Shown in pieces: positions 33,453-45,977 of a stretch of 46,023 nt of DNA. Under the pieces are notes generated by a model. The model had not been told where the DNA came from, did no database searches, and worked only from the letters and a program-made list of their open reading frames with translations. The position numbers were made by a program, and so were the translations under genes. Positions within the stretch are counted from its first letter, which is position 1; each line of letters opens with the position of its first letter. This stretch comes from a virus: positions 1 through 46,023 of IMG/VR virus record IMGVR_UViG_3300032309_001302, one strand, 5' to 3'.

Positions 33453-35486
33453 CTACTTGTTTATTTTAATTTCGCAATAATCTGTTGTGCAATAGGCTTC
33501 GCCTTGTGCTTCAAGATTATCAACGCCATCATAAATAGCAGCAAAGTCAATGTGCTTTAATTTACCAATATACGACTCATACTGATCTTCAGTAATCTGA
33601 GTATATGGCTGCTGTGGATATGTGTCATTTCCCATTGGTAGGAATGAGACTGCCTTTAATTGTCCCTCGTACATATGCAGTGCTGGAACAACATGCTTTG
33701 ACTCTGTTTCCTTGTCAAATGAAAGTGTTACAGAAACACCATTATCAGACCAGTACTTTTGAGCAGTTGCAGCAAGTGCAATCTTCTCAAACAATGTAAC
33801 ATCCTTTTCAGATCTTGGATGACCTGACTTGATTGGGAAGTATACAACTGATGTGTTTGCTGATACTACGTCGTCTTCAATTGTGTACCCTGCTGCTTTG
33901 AACAAGTGCATCATTGGATCTGTATTTCCAAATCGAACTGCACGAAGGAAGAAGTTTCCTCCAGGACCCCAGTGAACTCCAGGAGTTGCACCAGAAAGAA
34001 TTGAAACTGATCCTGATGGCTTTACTGTTGTTACACGAATTGATTCACGAACACATAGCCACTCAGAGTACTGGTGATCATAGTGACGAATCTTATTATA
34101 GCCTTCATCCATCCATTCACGAACAATTGGCAAACCCTTTTGATCTGCAAATGATGCAATACCAGTAAGAGATGTACCAATACGACGATTACGTTGCATG
34201 ATACCGTTTGTTTGTGGCCAGTGTGTTGGAACAAGTGTTACAGTCTTTCCATAAAGGTATGCAAACTTCAGGGTACGCAGAAAGTCCTCCTTAGATTCAT
34301 GACGATTCAAGTGCACTTCTACAAGTGTACATAGTTCGTATGATTCTAATGGCTGCTCCGCACATGGGTTGAATCCCATCACACGATAATCCTTACCGTC
34401 TGGCGCATCCTTTAGTCGTCCATAATTACGAGCAACATCAAGCCAGATAAAACCTGGTTCTCCGTTTTCCGTAATTAAATCTACATAGTCTTCGTACTTT
34501 GTTCCTACTTCTGCTGAAATAGAATTATTAGACATCCAAGCCCAACCTGGATTTTCTGGATCAAATGAGTTACGCTCTGGGAATAACTCTGAGTTCTTCA
34601 AGTTCATGAATGTCTCATCCCCTGCGTTACCCAAAGCAAGCGTTGCTGATCTGCGAACATTGCCAGACACTACACAAGTACCAATAAGGTTTACAAGGTC
34701 TACGATGGCACGAGAGTCTAGTGTTTCTCCGCCTCTGGAGCCGATTACACGGTCTATCTGGTTGTGCAACTTGATAAGGGGTGCAGGTCCTGATGCAACA
34801 CCTCCAAAGCCCTTAATCGGTGCTCCAAGGGGTCTGATTAAATCATAGTTAAACTTCTGGATGCTCTGGTTTGCTCTAAGATATGAATTGATTAGAAGTC
34901 GTACTGACTCTACCCAGCCTTCACGAGTGTCTGGTATTTCGAACACATGTTCTGGTTCTGTTGGGGTATAGATTGAGAAATTCTTATCCTGTCCCACTGT
35001 ATCAAACCCTACGCCAATACCAAGCATCAATGCATCCATGACCCAAGCAAATAATGCTCCTGGATCATTCTTGTCAAGGTCCTTTGTAGATACCATGGCA
35101 CAGTTCTGTAGTGCTGCAGAGTTCTTTTTCTCCATAGTCATAGGAGTTCCAAATGCCCACATTCCACGGCCTGGTGGTGTCCACTTTAATTCAAACATTC
35201 TCTGGAATGCTTCTTGTGCTGACTTCTGTGCCTTGTAGTCATTCCATGGCAAACGGTTTTCTTTAGCATGATTCTTCTGTACTGAATACATACCCTCAAT
35301 CACACGGCGACAAACTTCGTGCCATCTTTCTTTAGTTCCATCTTCCTTCATACGAGAATAAGTACGAATAAAAGTAATTTCTCCAAGTGAATTTTCTGCT
35401 GCATCCTTAAACCCAAATGGGCTTTCTTGGTTTTTATACTTTTCTACGAAGTCCTCTGGAAGTTTAAAACTAAAAAAATCTGACAT
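33453..35486 (-). CDS. Class II (adenosylcobalamin-dependent) ribonucleoside-triphosphate reductase
   Basis: A 677-residue monomeric-type reductase that would convert ribonucleotides to deoxyribonucleotides for phage DNA synthesis. Cysteines align with the Lactobacillus enzyme: Cys129 (ALQNCAMVS), Cys375 and Cys386 (NPCAEQPLESYELC, spaced 11 as C408/C419, with Glu377 as E410) and the C-terminal pair Cys666/Cys671 (YCTTDYC, spacing five, as C731/C736). GTCVVSGNVRRSA is also family-typical. No small radical subunit gene is present and B12 use is expected. It has its own promoter (35520-35528) after a terminator, with a Shine-Dalgarno AAAGGA. Confidence 0.93.
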   Translation of the reverse strand: MSDFFSFKLPEDFVEKYKNQESPFGFKDAAENSLGEITFIRTYSRMKEDGTKERWHEVCRRVIEGMYSVQKNHAKENRLPWNDYKAQKSAQEAFQRMFELKWTPPGRGMWAFGTPMTMEKKNSAALQNCAMVSTKDLDKNDPGALFAWVMDALMLGIGVGFDTVGQDKNFSIYTPTEPEHVFEIPDTREGWVESVRLLINSYLRANQSIQKFNYDLIRPLGAPIKGFGGVASGPAPLIKLHNQIDRVIGSRGGETLDSRAIVDLVNLIGTCVVSGNVRRSATLALGNAGDETFMNLKNSELFPERNSFDPENPGWAWMSNNSISAEVGTKYEDYVDLITENGEPGFIWLDVARNYGRLKDAPDGKDYRVMGFNPCAEQPLESYELCTLVEVHLNRHESKEDFLRTLKFAYLYGKTVTLVPTHWPQTNGIMQRNRRIGTSLTGIASFADQKGLPIVREWMDEGYNKIRHYDHQYSEWLCVRESIRVTTVKPSGSVSILSGATPGVHWGPGGNFFLRAVRFGNTDPMMHLFKAAGYTIEDDVVSANTSVVYFPIKSGHPRSEKDVTLFEKIALAATAQKYWSDNGVSVTLSFDKETESKHVVPALHMYEGQLKAVSFLPMGNDTYPQQPYTQITEDQYESYIGKLKHIDFAAIYDGVDNLEAQGEAYCTTDYCEIKINK

Positions 35487-35580: not shown

Positions 35581-36354
35581 TTATGCGTACTTGTTACCCT
35601 TTGCCCACTCTTCTTTTTGAATGGCCTGCTCAATTCTAACTTGCTTTTCTTCTTCTTTCCATTTATCTAGTGTTGCTTGATCATATTCAATTTCTTCATA
35701 ATCCCAAAAAGAAACCATTGTGTATCGAGTTCCTTCTAAAATTTCGCTTACGCCATGAACATTTTCAACTCCTCCAGGGAAAACATAATATGAGTATGCA
35801 TTTGGCTTAAAGGATAGATACGTTTCCCACCTATTACTATTGGTTTCTTTGTCATAAACCTCTGCCTCTTTACAAAAGAATAGATCTCCACCTTCATAAT
35901 CTCCATTTAAATATAGTATGCCTACATACTTATTTATTTCAAAAGCATTTGGCACTCCATCAAAATCTGAATTATCTGAGTGTGGAGCAGCAAAGCCACC
36001 AACATCCCATTTTTGAGCATGAGAAGTATTTGGCCTTACCTTTCTTTCAAAAACCAACTCAACTGCTTCTTTAAATTTTTCTCTAAGATTCTCAAAAAAA
36101 TTTCCATCTAATCCGTGTTCAGCAAGGCCTGGATCATTAGGAGCCAACCCCATACCTAAAGAACCATAAAAAGCAATATCTCCCCAATCGTCTCCTTTTG
36201 ACTCAACATAAGAAATCATAGACTGTGCAGTTTTTTCGTCTAAAAAGTTTGGAATTTCAACAATTCTATTATGAGTTATTCCAAGAACACCTTTTGTGTT
36301 GTCTTCATTTTTTATGTAATTAAAATTTGACTTATCAATTTTATCAATTATCAT
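35581..36354 (-). CDS. 2-oxoglutarate/Fe(II) dioxygenase, copy A (prolyl-4-hydroxylase-like)
   Basis: A 257-residue double-stranded beta-helix oxygenase. Iron ligands His125 and Asp127 are in FAAPHSDNSD and His200 is in ENVHGVSE, with Arg210 (EGTRYTM) as the probable 2-oxoglutarate anchor. YLNGDYEGGDLFF is the family's core strand motif. The ATG at 36354 has AAGGAAAAA just upstream and overlaps the previous gene by 11 bases; an earlier in-frame ATG has no such site. A charged helical tail (LDKWKEEEKQVRIEQ) follows the domain. It is last in a coupled set of oxygenase genes and ends at a terminator. Substrate unknown. Confidence 0.9.
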   Translation of the reverse strand: MIIDKIDKSNFNYIKNEDNTKGVLGITHNRIVEIPNFLDEKTAQSMISYVESKGDDWGDIAFYGSLGMGLAPNDPGLAEHGLDGNFFENLREKFKEAVELVFERKVRPNTSHAQKWDVGGFAAPHSDNSDFDGVPNAFEINKYVGILYLNGDYEGGDLFFCKEAEVYDKETNSNRWETYLSFKPNAYSYYVFPGGVENVHGVSEILEGTRYTMVSFWDYEEIEYDQATLDKWKEEEKQVRIEQAIQKEEWAKGNKYA

Positions 36355-37255
36355 TTTTTTCCTTTTCTTTTTGAGAAAACATTGCATCGTATTCATTCCT
36401 AATTATGTCAAACTCTTTTGACTGTTTTTTTTCTAAAAGTTCCTTTGAATATGCCTCTTCGCTTAACCTTGCATACTCATTTCTTAATTTAGCAATTCTT
36501 TCTTCTTCCATCTTCATCCAAACCTCTTCGCCATATTTTTCTCTATTTGCAAGCCATTCTGGATTTCCAGCAAAAGGCTTTTGATAAAAACATCTAATCA
36601 AATACTTGTCAGCACCAGAAACTATCTTAACTCCGTGCAAATACTTGCCATTTTCTGACAAAAGATCTGGGTGGCCAGAAGGAAAAACAAGAACATCTCC
36701 AGCAACTGGCTTGTAGTCTATAATTTTTTTATTTGGTAGCATAAATGTTATATCGCCACCCTCATAGTCATCATTAAGGTACATCGTACAAGTTAAAATA
36801 AACTTATTGCCTGGCCAGTCTTGTTCTGGAGTTACATAATCTGTATGGTAAATCATCTCTAGACCTTGCTGAGCAAGACTTCTTTGTTCTGCATTTTCAT
36901 GATTATATCTTGAAATTGATGGGCCCATAATTGACCAATTATATTCAACACTTCGATTATGATCTGATAAGTAAGTCTTTGTTGCATACAAAAAAGCATT
37001 ATTTATTTCATCTAAAATTTCTTTTTCTTCATGATAAATATCTCTCAATTCATCTGTATTAGCATTTCCATCTTTGCCGATGTCCCAAACATAAGAACCA
37101 AATCTGCTCCATGGTCTCCAGTCTTTAAATAGAACAGAAGAATCTGGATTTTTTTCAGACTCCTTGAATATTTCTACTGCACGAACATGATGTTTTAAAA
37201 GTCCACGATACACATAGATATTTTCTTCTAACTTTTCAAGTTTTATATCACTCAC
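36344..37255 (-). CDS. 2-oxoglutarate/Fe(II) dioxygenase, copy B
   Basis: A 303-residue oxygenase. His137 and Asp139 (IYHTDYV) and His207 (KYLHGVKI) are the metal ligands. The anchor position holds Lys217 (ADKYLIRCF) instead of Arg. YLNDDYEGGDITFML is the core strand. The chosen start is the GTG at 37255, because GGAGG (37264-37268) lies eight bases above it. The alternative ATG at 37270 has no site. The GTG overlaps the end of the upstream oxygenase by eight bases. A long charged helical tail (EEVWMKMEEERIAKLRNEYA) extends the C-terminus. Substrate unknown. Confidence 0.88.
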   Translation of the reverse strand: MSDIKLEKLEENIYVYRGLLKHHVRAVEIFKESEKNPDSSVLFKDWRPWSRFGSYVWDIGKDGNANTDELRDIYHEEKEILDEINNAFLYATKTYLSDHNRSVEYNWSIMGPSISRYNHENAEQRSLAQQGLEMIYHTDYVTPEQDWPGNKFILTCTMYLNDDYEGGDITFMLPNKKIIDYKPVAGDVLVFPSGHPDLLSENGKYLHGVKIVSGADKYLIRCFYQKPFAGNPEWLANREKYGEEVWMKMEEERIAKLRNEYARLSEEAYSKELLEKKQSKEFDIIRNEYDAMFSQKEKEKNDN

Positions 37256-37928
37256 TTGTTTTGCCTCCATGAGAAAGAATTGTAAAGAAAAATGGAATAA
37301 CATATCTTATTCCACTTTTAATCTCTGTTACTCCATGTATATAATTTAGATCACCTGGGAAAAAATATGCTGCTCCTGCTTTTGGCTTAAATTGAATCTC
37401 CTGGTTTGGAAAATAAAGTTCTCCACCCTCATAGTCATCATTTAAATAAAACAGGCCTGCAATATCGTACCAAGGAAAATCATTTGGTTTTCCAGCATTG
37501 TCACCTTCATGCAACTCTTTATCTGCATGAGGCATCTGAAGTTGACCAGGAAGCCATCTGACAATTGCTGTGCTTGTTGCCCAAGCATCTATATTAAAGA
37601 ACTTGTCAACCTCAAGTTTTAGTCTTCTTTGCAGTTCTGTAATCATTGGATTAATTTTTGGGTCATTAAGGTCTAATGTGTTTGATGTTGCAACTCTATT
37701 TTCCCAGTAAGTTGAGTCATAGATTACTGTGCCCTCATCATTATAGTGTGTTTCAGTAACATCCCAAACTGATATATTCTTTGCTGCATTAGAAAGAAAG
37801 TCAAGTTCTTCTGATGTCATAAAATTTTCTCGTGCCTGAATCATTTCAGCACTTTTTCCAAAATATCCAGATGGAGTTATAGAGACTCTCTCATTTGATT
37901 GATTATTTGAATACTCTACTTTTTCCAT
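37248..37928 (-). CDS. 2-oxoglutarate/Fe(II) dioxygenase, copy C
   Basis: A 226-residue oxygenase. His134 and Asp136 (QMPHADKE) and His198 (NYIHGVTE) bind iron, with Arg208 (SGIRYVIP) as the 2-oxoglutarate anchor. YLNDDYEGGELYFPN is the core motif. The N-terminal 100 residues are helical (EELDFLSNAAKNISVWDV) and form the usual substrate-side lobe. No Shine-Dalgarno precedes the ATG at 37928. TGGTATAAT at 37935-37943 ends exactly six bases before it, so the transcript is probably leaderless and also carries copies B and A. Closest in length to copies D and E. Confidence 0.9.
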   Translation of the reverse strand: MEKVEYSNNQSNERVSITPSGYFGKSAEMIQARENFMTSEELDFLSNAAKNISVWDVTETHYNDEGTVIYDSTYWENRVATSNTLDLNDPKINPMITELQRRLKLEVDKFFNIDAWATSTAIVRWLPGQLQMPHADKELHEGDNAGKPNDFPWYDIAGLFYLNDDYEGGELYFPNQEIQFKPKAGAAYFFPGDLNYIHGVTEIKSGIRYVIPFFFTILSHGGKTSE

Positions 37929-37934
37929 ATTTTT

Positions 37935-37943
37935 ATTATACCA
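37935..37943 (-). promoter_or_regulatory. Extended -10 promoter with leaderless spacing, TGGTATAAT
   Basis: TATAAT at 37935-37940 preceded by TGG, exactly six bases from the ATG at 37928, in a 21-base gap between genes. It heads the three-gene oxygenase transcript that ends at the terminator near 35541-35577. Confidence 0.68.
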
Positions 37944-37949
37944 CCAAAT

Positions 37950-38684
37950 CTATTCATATTTTCTTTGCTCCCAAACCTCATTTTTATAAATTCCGCCATC
38001 TGGTTTTCTATAAATATTTGCGTTTTCAGTTGTTTGTCTAAATAGTTCTCTTGCATCGTTTTCTTCTAAAACATCAGACACCCAATTTTCTCTTTTAAAT
38101 GGAATAACCTGAGCATATGGTGTTCCAGCAGGAATAACTCCTTCAAATCCTTCTATAATAAAAAATGGTAGAGATCCTGGAAGATGAACTTTGTCATTAT
38201 CAATTATTCCGCTTGTTGATAAAAATGGAAGTTCGTATCTGTTAAATGGCTGTGCATATAGAGCACTATATCCTGGTGGCAATTTTACTTGCCAGTCACA
38301 GGTCCAGGCAAAATGCTTTTTGTAATAGCCTTTTGGATGCTCAAACTGTGGCATTTCATATCTATCATGAACAAAATCTTGATATTTTGCATTAGCAATC
38401 TTACATTGCAATCCGTTTGGTCCCTGGAAAAATTCAATATCGCATGGAGTATTAAGAGAATATCCAGTTGCCATAATATCAAAAATTGCTGGACATGCTT
38501 TCCATGTGGGAATCTTTCCGCCATCTGGACCAATATCAAAATCTCCATTTGGATTAGTTTTGGCAAACCTATCTGCTTTTCTAAACCACTCTGGTATAGT
38601 TTTAATTATTGGCTTTGGAGATGACTTACTTTCTTTAGAAAGCCAAATCTTGTTTGCGGTGAATGTTATTTTTTGAGTTTCCAT
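37950..38684 (-). CDS. Jelly-roll-like protein related to the neighbouring 235-residue protein
   Basis: A 244-residue protein. It has IPEWFRKADRF, IPTWKACPAIFDIMATGYSL and TPCDIEFF, then the conserved-looking WQVKLPPGYSALYAQPFNR and the C-terminal FIIEGFEGVIPAGTPYAQVIPFKRE. The last two motifs are typical of a small family common in T4-like cyanophages, where it also neighbours 2OG oxygenases (possibly DUF6065; I am not sure of the accession). No iron-ligand triad is obvious. It is paralogous in outline to the gene upstream (GWTFSYPEDISFIW and ITIPANTPIVAIIPI correspond to GYSLNTPCDIEFF and IPAGTPYAQVIPF). Function unknown; it may bind a small ligand. Confidence 0.72.
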   Translation of the reverse strand: METQKITFTANKIWLSKESKSSPKPIIKTIPEWFRKADRFAKTNPNGDFDIGPDGGKIPTWKACPAIFDIMATGYSLNTPCDIEFFQGPNGLQCKIANAKYQDFVHDRYEMPQFEHPKGYYKKHFAWTCDWQVKLPPGYSALYAQPFNRYELPFLSTSGIIDNDKVHLPGSLPFFIIEGFEGVIPAGTPYAQVIPFKRENWVSDVLEENDARELFRQTTENANIYRKPDGGIYKNEVWEQRKYE

Positions 38685-39391
38685 TATACAACATCTCTTT
38701 TATCATTTACCTTAAGTTTTAAACTTTTTAATTCATGTTTTCCTGTTGACTCACCTTTATGATTTACAGCATCACGATAAAAATTAGTCCACTCTCCAGA
38801 TTTACTTATTTCAAATGATGCATTTCCATAATCTGACATACCCTGGTAATACTCTTCTGAAAAATTCTCTGTATAAAGATTTACCTCTGTATCTTGTATA
38901 TCAGACAAACCTATTGGAATTATTGCAACAATAGGAGTGTTTGCTGGTATTGTGATTATTTCGTTTGCCTTAGTAATTTTCCAAGCGTATGGCATTGGTG
39001 GCTCTAAAACAGAAGTACTAATAATTGTTGTAAAACCCTGCACACCTTCAATAAATTGATTTGGTACTGGCATCATAAGAAGACTTACATTTTCTTCAGA
39101 CTTAAAAGTAAGACCACTGTGAAAACTTATAGTAGCATTTGCTCTGCTTGTAAAAACATAGTCTTCTCCAGAAAGAATCTTTACGTGCCCATCTGCAGAA
39201 GATGGATCCCCATCCCAGATAAAAGAAATATCTTCTGGGTATGAGAATGTCCATCCAAGAGTATTTGCTAAAGAAACTGGAAAACATCTATAAGCATGCT
39301 TATCAAATGTAGCATCCATCCAGTCTCTCTTTACATTTAAAGCCGAAAAAGAAACATCAAAATTCTTTTTCTTATATACAGAAATAGACAA
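38684..39391 (-). CDS. Jelly-roll-like paralogue with TTG start
   Basis: A 235-residue protein. The start is set at the TTG at 39391 because AGGAG (39398-39402) lies exactly six bases above it, inside the end of oxygenase D. A longer frame from an ATG at 39460 would overlap that gene by 68 bases without a site. It carries CFPVSLANTLGWTFSYPEDI, FIWDGDPSSADGH, VSLLMMPVPNQFIEG and PANTPIVAIIPIGL, matching the outline of the gene downstream, with which it shares one base at the stop/start. No catalytic triad. The two may form a heteromer, but this is inference. Confidence 0.7.
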   Translation of the reverse strand: MSISVYKKKNFDVSFSALNVKRDWMDATFDKHAYRCFPVSLANTLGWTFSYPEDISFIWDGDPSSADGHVKILSGEDYVFTSRANATISFHSGLTFKSEENVSLLMMPVPNQFIEGVQGFTTIISTSVLEPPMPYAWKITKANEIITIPANTPIVAIIPIGLSDIQDTEVNLYTENFSEEYYQGMSDYGNASFEISKSGEWTNFYRDAVNHKGESTGKHELKSLKLKVNDKRDVV

Positions 39392-39392
39392 A

Positions 39393-40076
39393 TTAGTCTC
39401 CTGTTTCTTGATACATTTCGTTAGTGTGGTATTTTGCACTATAATCAAGCATTGTAACAATAGAATACTTGATTCCAGATTCTACTGGCATTGCCCTATG
39501 AGGATACATGTATGTAGATGGAAATACATATAGATCTCCAGCCTTTGGCTTAACCTCTAGATTTTGAAGTCTAAACGACAACCCTCCGCCTTCGTAATCA
39601 TCGTTTGGATATCCTACCAAAGAAACTGTAGCATTATAAGAAAATCCATGATCGTGGTGGTACTGAAAGTGTTGCCCTGGGCCATACTTAATAAAGTTCA
39701 TAGCCTCCCAATATCTAAGTTCTCCTAGTTGAAAGTGCTCTGTATAGTGATCTACGACTGGCTTTTGCACATCATAGCAATCTTGCCACAATTCTTGAAG
39801 TCTTAATCCTTCTGGACTTTTGTCCCATTCAATATCAGTTTTTTTAAATTTAAAGTCTACGCAGTCACGATAGTCTGGCATTCTTTGCATATATCCTACA
39901 TATGCTGGCTGCCATTGGTGTGCTGGAGATTTTCCAACTGAAGATTCAAGTCTTTCAATGATGTTTAAGTCTTGTGGAAAAACATCCCTATAAACAAAAA
40001 TACCACTTCCTAAATCTTCAAAAGAAGACCATGTCTTTTTAACTTCTGGGCTTGAAACAGAATTTGATTGTTCCAT
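39393..40076 (-). CDS. 2-oxoglutarate/Fe(II) dioxygenase, copy D
   Basis: A 227-residue oxygenase. The iron site is His140 and Asp142 (FQYHHDHGF, HxD within HHD) and His193 (MYPHRAMP), with Lys203 (SGIKYSIV) at the anchor position, as in copies B and E. PNDDYEGGGLSF is the core strand. The segment DCVDFKFKKTDIEW parallels copy E's NCLDLKYRREHLGKF, so D and E are the closest pair. GAGGAAATAAA gives a Shine-Dalgarno before the ATG, and TATAAT at 40102-40107 is the likely promoter. Its stop overlaps the start signal of the next gene. Substrate unknown. Confidence 0.9.
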   Translation of the reverse strand: MEQSNSVSSPEVKKTWSSFEDLGSGIFVYRDVFPQDLNIIERLESSVGKSPAHQWQPAYVGYMQRMPDYRDCVDFKFKKTDIEWDKSPEGLRLQELWQDCYDVQKPVVDHYTEHFQLGELRYWEAMNFIKYGPGQHFQYHHDHGFSYNATVSLVGYPNDDYEGGGLSFRLQNLEVKPKAGDLYVFPSTYMYPHRAMPVESGIKYSIVTMLDYSAKYHTNEMYQETGD

Positions 40077-40101
40077 TTTATTTCCTCTCTCTTATACATA
40101 T

Positions 40102-40107
40102 ATTATA
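40102..40107 (-). promoter_or_regulatory. Candidate -10 (TATAAT) before oxygenase D
   Basis: ATGTATAAT on the minus strand, about 26 bases above the ATG at 40076, followed by AGAGAGGAAA. The TG adjoins the hexamer without the usual spacer base, as at 22102-22107. Confidence 0.45.
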
Positions 40108-40109
40108 CA

Positions 40110-40811
40110 TTATAAATGATCCTTATGGTGCAGATCATTATAGTCTGTCATTATGACGACAGAATACTTTATTCCTTCAAAAACCTCACATGAAGCATGT
40201 TCATATACAAAATTAGATGGGAAAAGAACTATATCTCCAGCATCTGGCTTAACCTTGATTCCATGTCTAGTAAAGTCTATTTCTCCTCCAGTATAATCAT
40301 CATTTAAATAAACAACTGCAGAGACTGTGCATGAGTAGTACGGACCATGGTCTCCATGTATTTTAAAATATTCTCCTGGAAGATACTTAACAAAATTAAA
40401 TGCTTCTTTGTAGTTCATTTGAAGATGCCACAAAGACTCATAATCTCTTAAGCATGCATCTAGGCTATCCTCAACTTCTTTGTGAATATCAAAAAGATTT
40501 TGATTAAATTCTAAAAATTTTCCTAGATGTTCTCTTCTGTATTTTAAATCAAGACAGTTTCTAAGATCATTAATGTCTTCTTTATCATTAACCTGTGCTC
40601 CATTCCAGGCAAAGGAATTGTCTTCGTTTATTGTATTTTCTAGTCTTGAAATTATATCTAGACCTTGACTTTTAGTAAAAACATTTTTATATAAATTGAT
40701 TCCGTAAGCAAGGTTTACAACCTCTATGCCATTTGATATTTTTCTTGTTGGCAGTCTTTCTTCTGATTGTTCTAATCTAGGAAGGTTAAACCACTTATAC
40801 TCTTGATCCAC
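40110..40811 (-). CDS. 2-oxoglutarate/Fe(II) dioxygenase, copy E
   Basis: A 233-residue oxygenase. His152 and Asp154 (FKIHGDHGP) and His205 (FVYEHASC) are the metal ligands, with Lys215 (EGIKYSVV) at the anchor position. YLNDDYTGGEIDF is the core strand. The start is a GTG at 40811 with AGGGGA a few bases upstream; no ATG fits better. The upstream element TGGTATAAT (40835-40843) is one arm of a divergent promoter pair with the plus-strand oxygenase. Copy D follows after a 33-base gap. Confidence 0.9.
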   Translation of the reverse strand: MDQEYKWFNLPRLEQSEERLPTRKISNGIEVVNLAYGINLYKNVFTKSQGLDIISRLENTINEDNSFAWNGAQVNDKEDINDLRNCLDLKYRREHLGKFLEFNQNLFDIHKEVEDSLDACLRDYESLWHLQMNYKEAFNFVKYLPGEYFKIHGDHGPYYSCTVSAVVYLNDDYTGGEIDFTRHGIKVKPDAGDIVLFPSNFVYEHASCEVFEGIKYSVVIMTDYNDLHHKDHL

Positions 40812-40834
40812 GAAGATCCCCTTTTGTTAATTAA

Positions 40835-40843
40835 ATTATACCA
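40835..40843 (-). promoter_or_regulatory. Extended -10 promoter (minus arm of divergent pair), TGGTATAAT
   Basis: TGGTATAAT on the minus strand, about 24 bases above the GTG at 40811, which has AGGGGA between. It sits within 16 bases of the plus-strand element at 40859-40867, so the two polymerases cannot both occupy the site. Confidence 0.62.
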
Positions 40844-40864
40844 TAGCATACGCAAATATGCTAT
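40843..40864. repeat. 8-bp perfect inverted repeat between divergent promoters
   Basis: ATAGCATA (40843-40850) and TATGCTAT (40857-40864) are perfect inverted copies with a six-base spacer. The repeat lies between and partly over the two divergent -10 elements. It could be an operator for a dimeric regulator, or follow simply from two similar promoters facing each other. Confidence 0.6.
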
Positions 40865-40867
40865 ACT
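40859..40867 (+). promoter_or_regulatory. Extended -10 promoter with leaderless spacing, TGCTATACT
   Basis: TGCTATACT, with TATACT at 40862-40867 followed by exactly six bases and the ATG at 40874. AAGGA abuts the ATG directly, too close to be a normal ribosome-binding site, so the message is likely leaderless. Confidence 0.65.
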
Positions 40868-40873
40868 TAAGGA

Positions 40874-41566
40874 ATGAATGAAAAACTAATCCCCCTTATA
40901 AAAAATCCTAACTTTGAACAATTATGTAATGATGTATGGGTTATTCATGACTTTACAACAATGGATGAGCGTAAGTTTTATATAGATCTTGCTGAATCTG
41001 CCAATGAAGAAGAATGGTGGCAAAGAGAGGCTGGCTGGTGGAATGGAAAGTTTTTACCAGTTCCAAAAGATTCGAGTGTTCCCACTCAAATTGTAGAAAA
41101 AATAAAAACTGCAATTGGTGAACCAGACCATTGGACTTGGGGTAGCCCAGCCTCTGTTCATAGAATTAAGCCTGGAGAAAAAATGTTTTTACATGCTGAT
41201 AACCCAAATGAAAAAAGTGGTTTAAATAATTGGGTTGACTTAAGTTTTGTTTTGTACCATAATGAATTCAATGGTGGAGAAATTATTTATCCAGAATTAG
41301 AATTTGAATACCATCCACTACCTGGTGATTTGCTGATGCATCCAGGCTCTCAGAATTATATTCATGGAACAAATGAAGTTCTTCCAGGCCCAAATAGATA
41401 TAATTCAACTATGTGGGCTTATGATAATAGAGCAAAGAAACTTCACGAAGAGGGTCTTGTTTATGAGGGATATAAGACAAAAAATCAACTTCATTCTATT
41501 TATAACGGTGAAAAGCCAAATGATATTTTTTCAAATGGTGAAAGAGAACCAGGCAATAACGTTTAG
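40874..41566 (+). CDS. 2-oxoglutarate/Fe(II) dioxygenase, copy F (only plus-strand gene)
   Basis: A 230-residue oxygenase. His107 and Asp109 (FLHADNPN) and His164 (NYIHGTNE) form the iron site, and Arg175 (GPNRYNST) is the 2-oxoglutarate anchor. YHNEFNGGEIIYPE is the core strand, diverged from the YLNDDYEGG of the other copies. Its codon style and composition resemble the neighbours. It is the only gene on the plus strand. Its TAG stop abuts, with no gap, the TAA stop of the converging 168-residue gene, so no terminator separates them. Substrate unknown. Confidence 0.9.
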   Translation: MNEKLIPLIKNPNFEQLCNDVWVIHDFTTMDERKFYIDLAESANEEEWWQREAGWWNGKFLPVPKDSSVPTQIVEKIKTAIGEPDHWTWGSPASVHRIKPGEKMFLHADNPNEKSGLNNWVDLSFVLYHNEFNGGEIIYPELEFEYHPLPGDLLMHPGSQNYIHGTNEVLPGPNRYNSTMWAYDNRAKKLHEEGLVYEGYKTKNQLHSIYNGEKPNDIFSNGEREPGNNV

Positions 41567-42073
41567 TTATAAAAACTGTGCAAACAAATAAACATCTGCT
41601 GCATTTCCAAAGTTATATATAGAACCAAGGCTACCTGGCTCTCTTATATATACGTTCTTTGGTATTGGTGTGTAGGTATTAGCATCAATAGATATTTGTG
41701 ATTTATAATTTACCAGCAATGGGAAAAAACATGTAGTAACCTTTTCCTCGTATTCTTCTACCGAATAATACTGTCTTATAGGATATTCCTGTGGCATTAA
41801 TTTAATTACATACATTTTTACTACTTTTTTGTTGTAGTTTTTTTCAAATTCATCAGTAATTGTTTTTGCTGCATCAAAAACTCTTGGATCTTTATAACAT
41901 TCAACAATGTAATCTTGACCTAATAAAAATTTTTCCTCATCTACATCAAGAATAAAACATAACTGCATATAATGATTATATTGAAATAAATCTGTTCTTG
42001 ACTCTTGTTGAGCCCAATGAAACTCTCCTTTATTTTTTACTAGTTCTACTAAATTTTCTATATTATATTTCAT
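41567..42073 (-). CDS. Protein with possible degenerate double-stranded beta-helix
   Basis: A 168-residue protein. Its second half is arranged like aspartyl/asparaginyl beta-hydroxylase-type domains: VKMYVIKLMPQEYPIRQYYS at the place of the HxD strand, TTCFFPLLVNYKSQISID as the central strands, KNVYIREPGSLGSIYNFGNA as the distal turn, and AADVYLFAQFL at the end. The residues expected to bind iron are missing (no HxD in PIRQYY, no His in the distal turn), so if the match is right it is catalytically dead or binds another ligand. The ATG overlaps the sulfotransferase stop by one base, showing coupling. Family assignment is tentative. Confidence 0.6.
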   Translation of the reverse strand: MKYNIENLVELVKNKGEFHWAQQESRTDLFQYNHYMQLCFILDVDEEKFLLGQDYIVECYKDPRVFDAAKTITDEFEKNYNKKVVKMYVIKLMPQEYPIRQYYSVEEYEEKVTTCFFPLLVNYKSQISIDANTYTPIPKNVYIREPGSLGSIYNFGNAADVYLFAQFL

Positions 42074-42795
42074 TATTTCTCCTGATTAAATTTATAAAAA
42101 AGTGATGAAGTATTATATACCTCTGCATCAATTGAATTAAACTCAAGTATTTTTTGTTTTTCTTTTTCTGTTAGGCTTGCATAAATTCTTGTTGAATCTG
42201 GATTCCATGAGTTTGCTCTTGACTGTAGTTTTTGATTTATTGGTGGAACTGGAACATTTAAATCAGTCAGTATCTTAGTATATGCCTGTTTTGTATTTTT
42301 TAATGATAGTTCTTCAGATTTTATTAATAAAGAAACATCTTGCAGTCTATTAAATATAATATCTTTTGTAACGATACAATCTCTTGTTTCTGGGCTATAT
42401 ATAAAACCACCCTCTACACTTTTTATTAAAAAGTTTTTAGATTGTATATTTTTTACAGTATCATTATTTCTTATCATCCATTCAAACATTGCATCTTTAT
42501 TATATTCTTCTGCTCCAATTGGTATTTTATGTTGTGCTCCATCTCCTAATACAGAAAAATGAGAATACAAACTTACTAGATGTTCTACTGGATCTCTTAG
42601 TAGACTTACCACATAAGTGTTTTTATCTATAAAATCTGCCCAAAATTGATGGGCTACATACGTATCTCTATCGTAGTGACTACCAACACCATGCTCTTTT
42701 ATTACTGGGGCTAAAGGTACTATTACATTATGAGTAAAATATCTACCTGCAGTTTTTGGAATATGAAGAAAGTAGAGACTATCAAAAGTTTTCAT
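42073..42795 (-). CDS. Sulfotransferase-family protein
   Basis: A 240-residue protein. SLYFLHIPKTAGRYFTHNV near residue 10-20 matches the 5'-phosphosulfate-binding loop of the cytosolic-type heparan sulfate O-sulfotransferase family (HIPKTAG). YVVSLLRDPVEHLVSLYSHF at about 61-80 gives the 3'-phosphate-binding Arg67 and Ser75 of the 'RDPV...S.Y' motif. It would transfer sulfate from PAPS to a hydroxyl, typically on a glycan; the acceptor cannot be read from sequence. No membrane segment or signal peptide is seen. AGGGA lies upstream of the ATG. It is coupled by one base to the 168-residue gene. Confidence 0.85.
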   Translation of the reverse strand: MKTFDSLYFLHIPKTAGRYFTHNVIVPLAPVIKEHGVGSHYDRDTYVAHQFWADFIDKNTYVVSLLRDPVEHLVSLYSHFSVLGDGAQHKIPIGAEEYNKDAMFEWMIRNNDTVKNIQSKNFLIKSVEGGFIYSPETRDCIVTKDIIFNRLQDVSLLIKSEELSLKNTKQAYTKILTDLNVPVPPINQKLQSRANSWNPDSTRIYASLTEKEKQKILEFNSIDAEVYNTSSLFYKFNQEK

Positions 42796-42823
42796 TTTAA
42801 TAGTCCCTACTCTCTGCTACTTA

Positions 42824-43798
42824 TTACTCTGGCTGTGTTTCTGGCTTTGGATCATTATAACCCATAGTCTGTGGATTTACTCTACCCCAGTTTGATGAGA
42901 AGTATGGAGGTGGGAAGTAAGGTCCGAACGTTGGACAGAATCTAGGTGGGAAGAACGGACAGAATGTTGGACAGAACCTAGGTGGGAAGAACGGACAGAA
43001 TCTAGGTGGGAAGAACGGGAATGATGGGCAGAACCGTGGTGGGAAGAACGGGAATGCTGGTGGGAAGAATGGTGGGAAGAACGGGAATGCTGGTGGGAAG
43101 AATGGTGGGAAGAACGGGAATGCTGGTGGGAAGAATGGTGGGAAGAACGGGAATGCTGGTGGGAAAAATGGAGGGAAGAAAGGTGGGAAGAACGGAACAG
43201 TTGTTGTAACTAATCCAGAACTTGTTGAGTATGCTCCATCTCCATTAGCGTTAATAGCAAGAACCTGGTACGTCTGCTGGGTTCCTCCAGTTTCTGCAAC
43301 ATCATAAGTTGTCACATTTCCAACACTATATATTGGTCCATCAGAGGACTTTAACTTGTATCCACTAATTGCTTTACCACCAGTTGCTGGAACTGACCAT
43401 ACAACCCGATCAAGGTTTGCTGATGGTGATGTTGCAGATGTAATTGATGGTGCTTGTGGAACAGTTGTTGCTGTTACTGAAGCGGTTGCTGCTGAAGCAA
43501 GAGATGTTCCTGCTGCATTTGTTGCTGTAACAGTAAATGTATAAGCAGTTGCAGATGCTAGACCTGTAACTACAATAGGAGAGGATGCTCCAGTAGCAGT
43601 AAATCCTCCAGGGGAAGATGTTACTGTGTATGAAGTTGCTGCTGGAGAATCTGCTGGCAAGGTAAATGCTACGCTAATAGCACCATTACTAAAGGCCCGT
43701 GATGTTCCTACATCTGTACCTATACCTATTGTTGGTGCCTTTGGTTCTAAGAAGTCATTCGCCTGGGCTGAATGTCTACCTACTCTTTTAATTGCCAT
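42824..43798 (-). CDS. Fibronectin-III protein with C-terminal Phe/Pro repeat tract
   Basis: A 324-residue protein. Residues about 20-200 form two fibronectin type III domains (ISVAFTLPADSPAATSYTVT, then ITSATSPSANLDRVVWSVPA and TYQVLAINANGDG). Residues about 202-300 are a low-complexity tract of PPFFPPAFPFFP units and then RFCP units, with five or so cysteines. A short non-repetitive tail ends it (GYNDPKPETQPE). The tract is built by 33-base tandem repeats. It is probably a virion surface or fibre protein, since it follows the tail fibre gene. AAAGGAG precedes the ATG. A shadow frame on the plus strand across the repeat is not a gene. Confidence 0.78.
   Translation of the reverse strand: MAIKRVGRHSAQANDFLEPKAPTIGIGTDVGTSRAFSNGAISVAFTLPADSPAATSYTVTSSPGGFTATGASSPIVVTGLASATAYTFTVTATNAAGTSLASAATASVTATTVPQAPSITSATSPSANLDRVVWSVPATGGKAISGYKLKSSDGPIYSVGNVTTYDVAETGGTQQTYQVLAINANGDGAYSTSSGLVTTTVPFFPPFFPPFFPPAFPFFPPFFPPAFPFFPPFFPPAFPFFPPFFPPAFPFFPPRFCPSFPFFPPRFCPFFPPRFCPTFCPFFPPRFCPTFGPYFPPPYFSSNWGRVNPQTMGYNDPKPETQPE
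42945..43193 (-). repeat. 33-bp tandem repeats encoding Phe/Pro units
   Basis: Three exact 33-bp units at 43038-43070, 43071-43103 and 43104-43136, a fourth with one change at 43137-43169, and a degenerate unit at 43005-43037. Shorter 24- and 36-base relatives encoding FFPPRFCP lie at 42945-43004. All keep frame, each 33-bp unit adding 11 residues, so length can vary without breaking the protein. Confidence 0.9.
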
Positions 43799-43826: not shown

Positions 43827-45977
43827 TTAAGCCTTTAGATCGCCGTAGATCAACCATGTAGTAGCACCAACCTTTGTGGCTGTTGCAGATGAGAAAGTTG
43901 TTCTAAGTGCTAATCCTGGTGTAGACTGAAGTGTCATTCCAGAACCTTGTACAAAAGTTGCGCCAGTGGATGCTGATTGATAAAAATCAATTGAAGATCC
44001 AATTGCATATTTTGCATTTCCAGTTGTATCAAATGTTACTGAGAATGCTCCAGAGATTGGTACAAGAGTATCTCTTGTATTTGCATCTGTTCCAAGTGCA
44101 TCTAAAGTTGTATTTGCTGCAACGGCTGTTTTAATTGGTGTTCGTGATATCACACCTTCTTTTGTTTGTGTTCCGTCAGTAAAGACAATTCCTGATGCTG
44201 ATGCTGTAATTGCTCCAGTTGCAGTAAGTGCTGCAGTTGTAGTTGTTCCAGTAAATGTTGGTCCAGCAAGGTTAGCCTTAAGATCAAGGGCTGTTTGCTG
44301 GGCTGTTGAAACTGGTTTTGCACTATCTGCTGTGTTATCTACTGCTCCAAGACCTACCATGGTCTTTGTAATTCCATTTACAGTTCCTGTGAATGTTGGA
44401 TTATCTTTTGTAGCAACTACTGTTAGGTCTGCAGAGAACTGATTATTTGATAAAGCAATTCCTGTTCCTGCTGTATATGTTCCTGTTCCTGAGAACTGGT
44501 ATACGTTAATATCATCAGTTCCTAAAACAAATGTTTCTGAATTTGCTACTGCAAATACCCAACCAGTTCCTGAAGTTAGTCCTGATTCTACATAAACATA
44601 TGATCCTGAAATTTCTGCTGAAGTATCTGATAGTTCAGAGCGAGTTAAAACCCAAGGTGTTGATACTGTTCCTAAGTTTGTAACAGTGTACAAGCCATTT
44701 TGAGCCTTTGCTGTTTGATTTTTTACAAGAATTCTAGATCCAACTGTGTAACTTGCACCTGCAAGTGCTCCATTTGATGTAGAAGTAAGTGTTGCTCCTA
44801 CTCCTGCTGTTCCATTACTATATGTTGCTGTAAGGTTTGCAGTTGTTGCTGCTAAAGCAGAATCTTTTGCTACAAGTCCTGATGCTACATTGTCAACATA
44901 AGATTTTGTTGCTGCATGTAAACTTGATGTAGGAAGACCTGAAAGTGTAAGGTCTCCTGTCATTGTTCCACCAGACTTTGAAAGTCTTGCATCTAGTTGA
45001 GTTTGAATTCCATTTGTAACTCCCTCTAGATACCCAATTTCTGTTGAATCAATATTTCCAATTGATGTAGTTGCTGGCAAAACAACAGTACCTGTTAATG
45101 TTGCACCTGCTAAAGGAGCATATGTTGATGCTGCTGTTGCAGATGCTAACTTTAGATCAAGTGCTGCCTGTGTTGCTATAGAAACCTCTTTATCTTCATC
45201 TGATGTATTATCAACATTTCCAAGACCAACCATAGATTGTGTGATTCCAGTTGTGCTTCCTGAAAAAGCAGCATTTGAAATTGATGGTGTTGTTATTGTT
45301 GGTGTTGTAAGCGTCTTATTTGTAAGAGTCTGTGTGCCAGCAAGGTATACTAGGTTTGCTGTATCTGAAATTCCGTGTACATCTGTTGCATCTGAACTGT
45401 GTGTAGATAGCATTGATGATGTAACTAAAACTGATGTATCTGCAATACCGTGAATATTTGTTGTATCTGTTTCATGGTTTGAGACTGCTGTTGCTACGTT
45501 TGCTGTAGTTGCTAGAAGTGAAGTATCTGCAATTCCGTGTACGCTTGTTGTATCTGCTTCGTGAGTTGATAGTGCTGTTCCTGCTGCAGTTGCTGCTGCA
45601 GATATTGCTTCTGACTTAGCAGTTGCTACGTTTGCTGTAGTTGCTAGAAGTGAAGTATCTGCAATTCCGTGAATTGCTGTTGTGTCTGATGCGTGATTGC
45701 TCAGATTTGTTGCTATTGTTGTTAAAAATTGTGGGTCATCTCCAAGGGCCAAGGCTAATTCATCAAGAGTATTTAGAAGTGCTGGTGCATCACCAATGAT
45801 TGCTGCTAGTTCTGCTGCGTTAGCAAAATACTGTAGGGCAGACCATGTTGATGATCCATTACCCATCTTAAACTTACTTGTGTCGGTTTCAAATCCGATC
45901 TCACCTGCTGCTAGAATTGGGTTTGCAGCCGTCCATTGTGCTGCAGTACCTCTGCGCTGTTGCATTCTTGTTGCCAT
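43827..45977 (-). CDS. Tail fibre protein with Mtd-like N-terminal domain
   Basis: A 716-residue fibre. The N-terminus (RMQQRRGTAAQWTAANPILA, then GEIGFETDTSKFKMG) is the 'RRGTAAQWt..nPvLaaGEiG' motif of the Mtd N-terminal/fibre attachment domain. Four diverged copies of an HGI(A/S)DT motif unit (DTTxVHGIADTS) follow in the first 210 residues. Conserved fibre segments come next (AATKSYVDNV, RILVKNQTAKAQNGLYTV, VGLGNVDNT and VGLGAVDNT). The C-terminus (VTFDTTGNAKYAIGSSID) is the usual beta-rich knob. It likely contacts the host surface. AAGGAG at 45988-45993 precedes the ATG. No chaperone is adjacent. Confidence 0.85.
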   Translation of the reverse strand: MATRMQQRRGTAAQWTAANPILAAGEIGFETDTSKFKMGNGSSTWSALQYFANAAELAAIIGDAPALLNTLDELALALGDDPQFLTTIATNLSNHASDTTAIHGIADTSLLATTANVATAKSEAISAAATAAGTALSTHEADTTSVHGIADTSLLATTANVATAVSNHETDTTNIHGIADTSVLVTSSMLSTHSSDATDVHGISDTANLVYLAGTQTLTNKTLTTPTITTPSISNAAFSGSTTGITQSMVGLGNVDNTSDEDKEVSIATQAALDLKLASATAASTYAPLAGATLTGTVVLPATTSIGNIDSTEIGYLEGVTNGIQTQLDARLSKSGGTMTGDLTLSGLPTSSLHAATKSYVDNVASGLVAKDSALAATTANLTATYSNGTAGVGATLTSTSNGALAGASYTVGSRILVKNQTAKAQNGLYTVTNLGTVSTPWVLTRSELSDTSAEISGSYVYVESGLTSGTGWVFAVANSETFVLGTDDINVYQFSGTGTYTAGTGIALSNNQFSADLTVVATKDNPTFTGTVNGITKTMVGLGAVDNTADSAKPVSTAQQTALDLKANLAGPTFTGTTTTAALTATGAITASASGIVFTDGTQTKEGVISRTPIKTAVAANTTLDALGTDANTRDTLVPISGAFSVTFDTTGNAKYAIGSSIDFYQSASTGATFVQGSGMTLQSTPGLALRTTFSSATATKVGATTWLIYGDLKA
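45490..45671 (-). repeat. 50-bp exact direct repeats inside the tail fibre gene
   Basis: The same 50 bases occur at 45490-45539 and 45622-45671, encoding the HGIADTSLLATTANVATA unit. They are 132 bases apart, a multiple of three, so recombination between them would delete or duplicate one unit in frame. A third, diverged copy of the protein unit lies further along the gene. Confidence 0.9.

Follow-up and report, generated by a model that had tools for sequence, protein, structure and literature searches.

Linked 2-oxoglutarate/Fe(II) oxygenases and a Phe-Pro repeat protein in uncultured phages: a candidate cassette for tailoring a tail-associated stalk

Aquatic phages often carry genes for 2-oxoglutarate/Fe(II) (2OG/Fe(II)) oxygenases, whose presence is unexplained. 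Six such genes lie at positions 35581–43798 of IMG/VR virus record IMGVR_UViG_3300032309_001302, beside a protein with a long Phe-Pro repeat tract, and the question raised by this locus is what such an array would act on. The window (the whole stretch analysed, positions 1 to 46,023 of the record; 46 kb) belongs to a long-tailed phage and encodes a portal, a prohead protease, a major head protein, a tape measure of 2692 amino acids (aa), minor tail proteins and a helicase. A reading made from the sequence alone had listed, within 8 kb, six oxygenases, a sulfotransferase and a protein with an FFPP/PAFP/RFCP tract. All of these proved real, the oxygenases intact and the sulfotransferase weak, and the region also holds a 168-aa orphan and, overlooked earlier and sited between oxygenases, a DUF6065 protein and its diverged relative. 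In our view the region is probably an exchangeable cassette that tailors a tail-associated stalk, its oxygenases hydroxylating prolines of the tract. This view draws on gene content, the intact active-site motifs of the oxygenases, the fold predicted for one of them, a linkage to the tract that persists when the N-terminal domain changes, and the replacement of one enzyme set by another between close relatives.

The repeat tract and its oxygenase array

The putative substrate is a 324-aa protein (42824–43798, minus strand) with an N-terminal FN3 region (PF00041, E 6e-8; 33.2 bits against a cut-off of 25), then the FFPP/AFP/RFCP tract and a short C-terminal tail. The tract spans residues 203 to about 299 (~97 residues; 42902–43192, minus strand; TRF arrays 42908–43192, tandem-repeat score 289), and the 105 residues counted from residue 203 include 40 Pro, spelled by three codons, and 39 Phe. 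The repeat is not a chance feature: relatives of the protein occur in more than 384 IMG/VR contigs, and the tract is preserved in those inspected. Class-I tracts (n = 171) consist of 44% F, 43% P, 4% Y and <1% charged residues, with proline mainly in the contexts FF|PP|FF, FF|P|FF and YF|PP|YF. Among tract proteins selected by pattern, the region N-terminal to the tract was FN3 in 28 of 45, an S74 chaperone in three, PASTA in two and an unknown region in the rest; the invariant columns fall in the tract, mean column identity of the set being 20%. C-terminal to the tract, relatives vary between Cys-rich tips, intein/Hint-like domains (in L003, PF14890 at E 2e-5, below cut-off) and almost nothing. 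Intein/Hint-like ends are common (L003:7487-8851, L017, L021, L029, L039, L041; G091, G101, G102) and several finish in HNK, others being small Cys-rich tips; self-processing or display of a variable tip are possible functions of such ends.

Among cultured phages, neither a megablast search with the region nor tblastn searches with the tract protein and the DUF6065 proteins gave useful matches. In bacterial genomes FFPPFFPP matched mostly by chance, and only L124 and L155 had repeated FFPP tracts accompanied by module enzymes. Long Pro-rich repeat proteins of other types (PTPEP, PPVTPP, TPTP) were seen at L477, L478, L479, L487 and L485 (G096, G099, G113, G111 and G088). Several of these contigs have additional 2OG and DUF6065-like genes only a few genes away, and the repeat proteins are perhaps a second type of substrate.

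With 28 to 49.9 bits, all six oxygenases exceed the gathering cut-off of PF13640 (27) and retain the iron triad HxD...H together with the R/K for 2-oxoglutarate. Five lie on the minus strand: ox1 (35581–36396; E 4.5e-6; H139xD, H214, R224), ox2 (36344–37303; E 1e-8; H153xD, H223, K233), ox3 (37248–37928; E 2.2e-8; H134xD, H198, R208), ox4 (39393–40076; E 6.3e-13; H140xD142, H193, K203) and ox5 (40110–40811; E 3.3e-11; H152xD, H205, K215). The sixth, ox6 (40874–41566; E 6.8e-7; H107xD, H164, R175), lies on the plus strand, opposite to the array and outside the conserved core gene order. The active-site residues of ox4 are invariant across 43 sequences. Its family profile, compared with the PDB, found Bacillus prolyl-4-hydroxylases first (E 5e-6; 3itq, 5hv0), then lysyl hydroxylase LH3 and others. 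When an AlphaFold2 (AF2) model of ox4 (pLDDT 92), the sole oxygenase modelled, was compared with the PDB by Foldseek, nearly all of the top 50 matches were prolyl hydroxylases (TM about 0.5–0.7), including the prolyl 4-hydroxylase (P4H) of P. putida, PHD2, the chlorella-virus enzyme vCPH (5c5t) and an algal P4H with (Ser-Pro)5 (3gze). Predicted fold and profile matches thus favour peptidyl-proline hydroxylation without proving it. Three PHROG families that match these oxygenases, 2297, 274 and 3531, bear the names 'DNA endonuclease', 'endonuclease V' and 'ferrochelatase', which may mislead where they are used to annotate phage genomes.

Co-occurrence of the two gene types across related phages was the check that the sequence-only reading had named for itself, and the linkage is near-complete. 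PF13640 was present in all 40 longer contigs found via the FFPP protein, usually in 6–8 copies, and in 39 of 41 contigs found mainly by the DNA of the tract (40 from a search with a YFPPYFPPFFP DNA pattern, and G157 via the head protein), compared with 0 of 45 random IMG/VR contigs picked by an arbitrary 15-mer, many of them shorter and 12 exceeding 33 kb. Gene order is conserved as fibre, tract protein, ox5, ox4, d6065a (the DUF6065 protein), ox3, (ox2), ox1 and ribonucleotide reductase (RNR), with the diverged relative d6065b shifting within the block. An ox5 orthologue follows the tract gene directly or closely in most relatives. The most widely retained oxygenase is ox3, often inverted at pattern-selected loci, still retained, and found beside PASTA-type tract proteins too; at L124 a PASTA-tract protein is followed by ox3, ox4 and d6065a, so that linkage follows the tract, independent of FN3 homology. 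FFPP loci without slot enzymes are mostly second tract copies, with an array elsewhere in the contig, or lie at contig ends. Of the relatives by head protein that carry arrays yet seemed to lack a tract, G103 turned out to bear an HFPP variant, and the contig of G106 begins inside the array.

Exchange of enzyme sets at one genomic slot

The array is bounded in relatives by two conserved genes. Upstream lies a tail-fibre-like protein (43827–45977, minus strand; Mtd_N PF18454, E 1.6e-13; tail-fibre PHROGs; synteny), and it is this neighbour that is fibre-like; the earlier description of the tract gene itself as a fibre protein stays conjectural. Downstream, outside the module, is a B12-type (class II) RNR (33453–35486, minus strand; PF17975, PF21995, PF02867). 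Relatives of the head protein of the window (79–98% identical) yielded 33 long records. In the FFPP-type genomes G087, G088, G090 and G093 and the HFPP variant G103, the slot between fibre and RNR holds the array. In G091 and G110 the same slot holds a homologous FN3 protein with an AFGAFG tract and one DUF6065-like gene, with no array, and in others (e.g. G089, G101 and G102) an FN3 protein with an FGFTP/FSFTPFG tract and two or three genes of a type we call c2a, again with no array. The closest relative of the window phage, G088 (118.8 kb), is one of 13 records, among 30 tract-bearing ones tested, that encode a WhiB protein (G022, G023, G029, G030, G032, G033, G038, G088, G090, G117, G118, G119 and G124); because of these genes we infer actinobacterial hosts, which established knowledge of WhiB suggests.

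Scanning with AFG and FGFTP tract patterns enlarged the set of loci, which was then dereplicated. At least three PF13640 genes were present at 42 of 48 FFPP loci, c2a at 20 of 29 FxPFG loci, and no PF13640-type or c2a gene at any of 21 AFG loci, all of which carried DUF6065. Among loci bounded by RNR, the array (≥3 PF13640 enzymes) was found beside all 19 FFPP tracts; of 21 FxPFG loci, 14 had c2a and none an array; and all 34 AFG loci, where the tract is nearly Pro-free, lacked any PF13640-type or c2a gene. The RNR tree requires at least 17 changes of tract class, and the closest RNR relatives of the window bear FxPFG, AFG and FFPP tracts. In phylogenetically independent pairs on well-supported RNR branches, the array changed with the tract in 5 of 5 (sign test p 0.0625, the minimum for n = 5).

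What the oxygenases would act on

The genomic side of the earlier proposal, that the oxygenases act on tract prolines, is supported by co-occurrence, by the swap at the slot and by the prolyl-hydroxylase relatives of ox4; the chemistry we infer. Under this reading, the array's 2OG/Fe(II) oxygenases would hydroxylate prolines of the FFPP tract during particle production, acting on an FFPP-type peptide such as FFPPFFPPAFPFFPP, and none of them on AFGAFGAFG. The paralogues would probably divide the proline contexts between them: the first Pro of FFPP and the second, the lone Pro of FFP, and Pro adjoining Cys or Arg. Hydroxylation would make a sticky, poorly soluble tract more hydrophilic and turn it into a stiffer, polyproline-like stalk bearing the variable C-terminal tip, and the new hydroxyls would allow optional further modification by the sulfotransferase.

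Several observations weigh against this reading. Proline alone does not demand a slot oxygenase, because 7 of the 21 RNR-bounded FxPFG loci (e.g. L679) have Pro in the tract yet neither array nor c2a. Contigs with AFG tracts carry PF13640 genes elsewhere in 19 of 31 cases, usually as one copy. The c2a protein had no family match in Pfam or PHROGs, its profile link to the oxygenases is weak (50% probability with ox6), and its status as a putative oxygenase comes from an H-D/E-H ... H ... R pattern read by eye. The Fisher comparison of FFPP with AFG loci (1e-12) is descriptive, as it ignores kinship and so overstates independence. The fold similarity predicted for a single modelled enzyme leaves the substrate unfixed, and in chlorella virus PBCV-1, which encodes vCPH, hydroxyproline was not found in virions (PMC7019647).

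Among the alternatives, the best survivor is that the block sets host interaction, and that the oxygenases travel with it while acting on another target, be it the tail-fibre protein, a surface glycan or the host envelope. That an Mtd_N fibre gene lies within the conserved block, that cassettes are swapped as units, and that some slots hold glycosyltransferase-like and sulfotransferase-like genes would all fit such a receptor-binding role. We nevertheless judge it unlikely: the family of the fibre gene stays constant while the enzyme set shifts with tract type, linkage holds with PASTA-type and other N-terminal domains, and contigs with one array have second copies of the tract at other sites.

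Slightly less likely again is that the oxygenases do act on the tract but at another residue or by another reaction, such as beta-hydroxylation of Phe/Tyr, oxidation of Arg/Cys, desaturation or cross-linking. 2OG oxygenases are known to catalyse many reactions, the tract is about half aromatic, the many differing paralogues suggest several target positions, and a protein of the Asp/Asn hydroxylase family (PF05118) occurs in one FGFTP slot. Against this, the nearest solved structures are prolyl hydroxylases, and Pro rather than Phe is the likely target because the Phe-rich, nearly Pro-free AFG tract has no slot oxygenase. Published suggestions for cyanophages (PMC3037559; PMC9602691) and the PF13640 genes found away from tracts would fit a role in auxiliary metabolism or DNA repair, with the oxygenases near the tract by chance or through a hot spot of gene gain. 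This is very improbable, given the absence of PF13640 from 45 random contigs compared with 40/40, an enzyme set that tracks repeat type at one slot, and an ox4 fold nearest to protein prolyl hydroxylases.

The DUF6065 proteins follow a different pattern from the oxygenases of the array. In the window, d6065a (38684–39460, minus strand; PF19541, E 5.1e-29, 101.9 bits against a cut-off of 26.6) is a conserved module member found near the tract gene in most relatives. The adjacent d6065b (37950–38684, minus strand) matches phrog_7084 (E 1.4e-35) and aligns with d6065a at 94% probability in hhalign; it has no Pfam family match, falling short of the PF19541 cut-off. DUF6065-related genes are retained beside all three tract classes, and beside AFG tracts a distant relative of d6065b is the only module gene kept. 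This is as expected if, under our favoured reading, the oxygenases serve proline and DUF6065 something common to all stalks: DUF6065 proteins would act on, or help to assemble, the stalk independently of proline. The idea that DUF6065 might be an extra oxygenase found no support, the AF2 model of d6065a (pLDDT 87) having no 2OG fold and just a faint similarity to the dUTPase-like beta-fold (best E 1.3e-3, TMq 0.39).

Accessory genes, known systems and implications

The sulfotransferase-like gene (42073–42795, minus strand) is an optional accessory. Its match to Sulfotransfer_2 (PF03567; E 0.0012, 19.4 bits) is below cut-off, as is that to PF00685 (17.1 bits; cut-off 22 each), and a close relative was found in the nearest phage only. 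The stretch HIPKTAG, read by eye near its N-terminus, may correspond to a 5' phosphosulfate-binding loop, and a model of sulfotransferase-like neighbours of related tract proteins finds the window gene (53 bits, 1.3e-18, the E-value of this single-sequence search being optimistic). Sulfotransferase-like genes adjoin tract proteins at a minority of loci (FFPP 11/48, FxPFG 2/29, AFG 0/21). The sequence-only reading had given this enzyme the role of modifying the new hydroxyls; with a gene that is near-private but of a kind that recurs beside tracts, that role is weakly supported, and sulfation would be at best a recurrent but optional decoration. The 168-aa accessory protein (41567–42073, minus strand) has no Pfam or PHROG match and no relative among L001–L080. 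Further genes seen in FGFTP slots (L673:6397-7005; L655:7692-8525) encode a member of the Asp/Asn beta-hydroxylase family (PF05118, E 1.7e-12) and a protein that weakly matches a glycosyltransferase.

Low-complexity, Pro-rich stalks of plants and algae are stiffened by hydroxyproline and then decorated. The phage system resembles these hydroxyproline-rich glycoproteins and their P4Hs (extensins, mastigonemes) in concept, and the algal P4H 3gze is among the fold matches of ox4; it differs in that the repeat is FFPP/FFP, aromatic and nearly uncharged, and in that decoration enzymes are optional. Collagen/Bacillus prolyl 4-hydroxylases (3itq, 5hv0) are the nearest solved relatives of the ox4 profile, whereas collagen and collagen-like phage proteins are set apart by their Gly-X-Y repeat, which is not present in the FFPP/AFP/RFCP tract; by that standard the tract is not collagen-like. 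Virus-encoded hydroxylation of Pro-containing peptides is already known from PBCV-1, whose P4H vCPH acts on such peptides (Eriksson 1999, as cited in PMC7019647). vCPH is a 2OG/Fe(II) enzyme, and the ox4 model matches its structure; in contrast, PBCV-1 is a eukaryotic virus in which the role of vCPH in replication is unknown, whereas the loci described here are phage arrays of several paralogues beside a putative substrate, with an enzyme set that varies with the repeat.

Cyanophage 2OG-Fe(II) oxygenases (PHROG 61) belong to the same superfamily, and ox1–ox5 match phrog_61; their substrates are unknown, whereas the window locus has a linked candidate. For such enzymes in aquatic phages a link with DNA repair or with 2OG pools has been proposed (PMC3037559); they have also been described as EGLN3-like by fold (PMC12774648) and called uninvestigated (PMC9602691), and cyanophage S-SCSM1 carries 24 of them (PMC9602691). 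In this cultured phage, a short tail fibre (SSCSM1_245; L728:8096-9361) has a 263-residue Arg/Pro-rich repetitive insert, with four 2OG oxygenase genes before the fibre genes and three after. The picture in cultured cyanophages is mixed, as the fibres that adjoin 2OG genes in S-H9-1 contain no Arg/Pro-rich tract of this kind. In the open-access literature searched, no paper described FFPP tracts in phages or mentioned DUF6065.

We give even chances to a more general proposal, a modular phage system of post-translationally built stalks (FFPP, FGFTP, AFG and possibly PTPEP/PVTPP repeats), each with its own enzymes (a PF13640 array, c2a, DUF6065, and optional sulfo- or glycosyltransferases) and swapped between close relatives to alter the particle surface. 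Were this true, DUF6065 and c2a would represent new protein families that modify proteins or assemble stalks. For the many 2OG/Fe(II) oxygenases of aquatic phages, the locus provides a linked candidate substrate together with a natural negative control in the AFG tract, and relatives of the tract–oxygenase pair are spread among many uncultured freshwater and marine phages. If our favoured reading is true, these phages use enzyme-built fibres of hydroxyproline type, which are otherwise familiar mainly from animals, plants and algae, and the swapping of cassettes suggests that rapid exchange between phages targets the surface chemistry of the particle.

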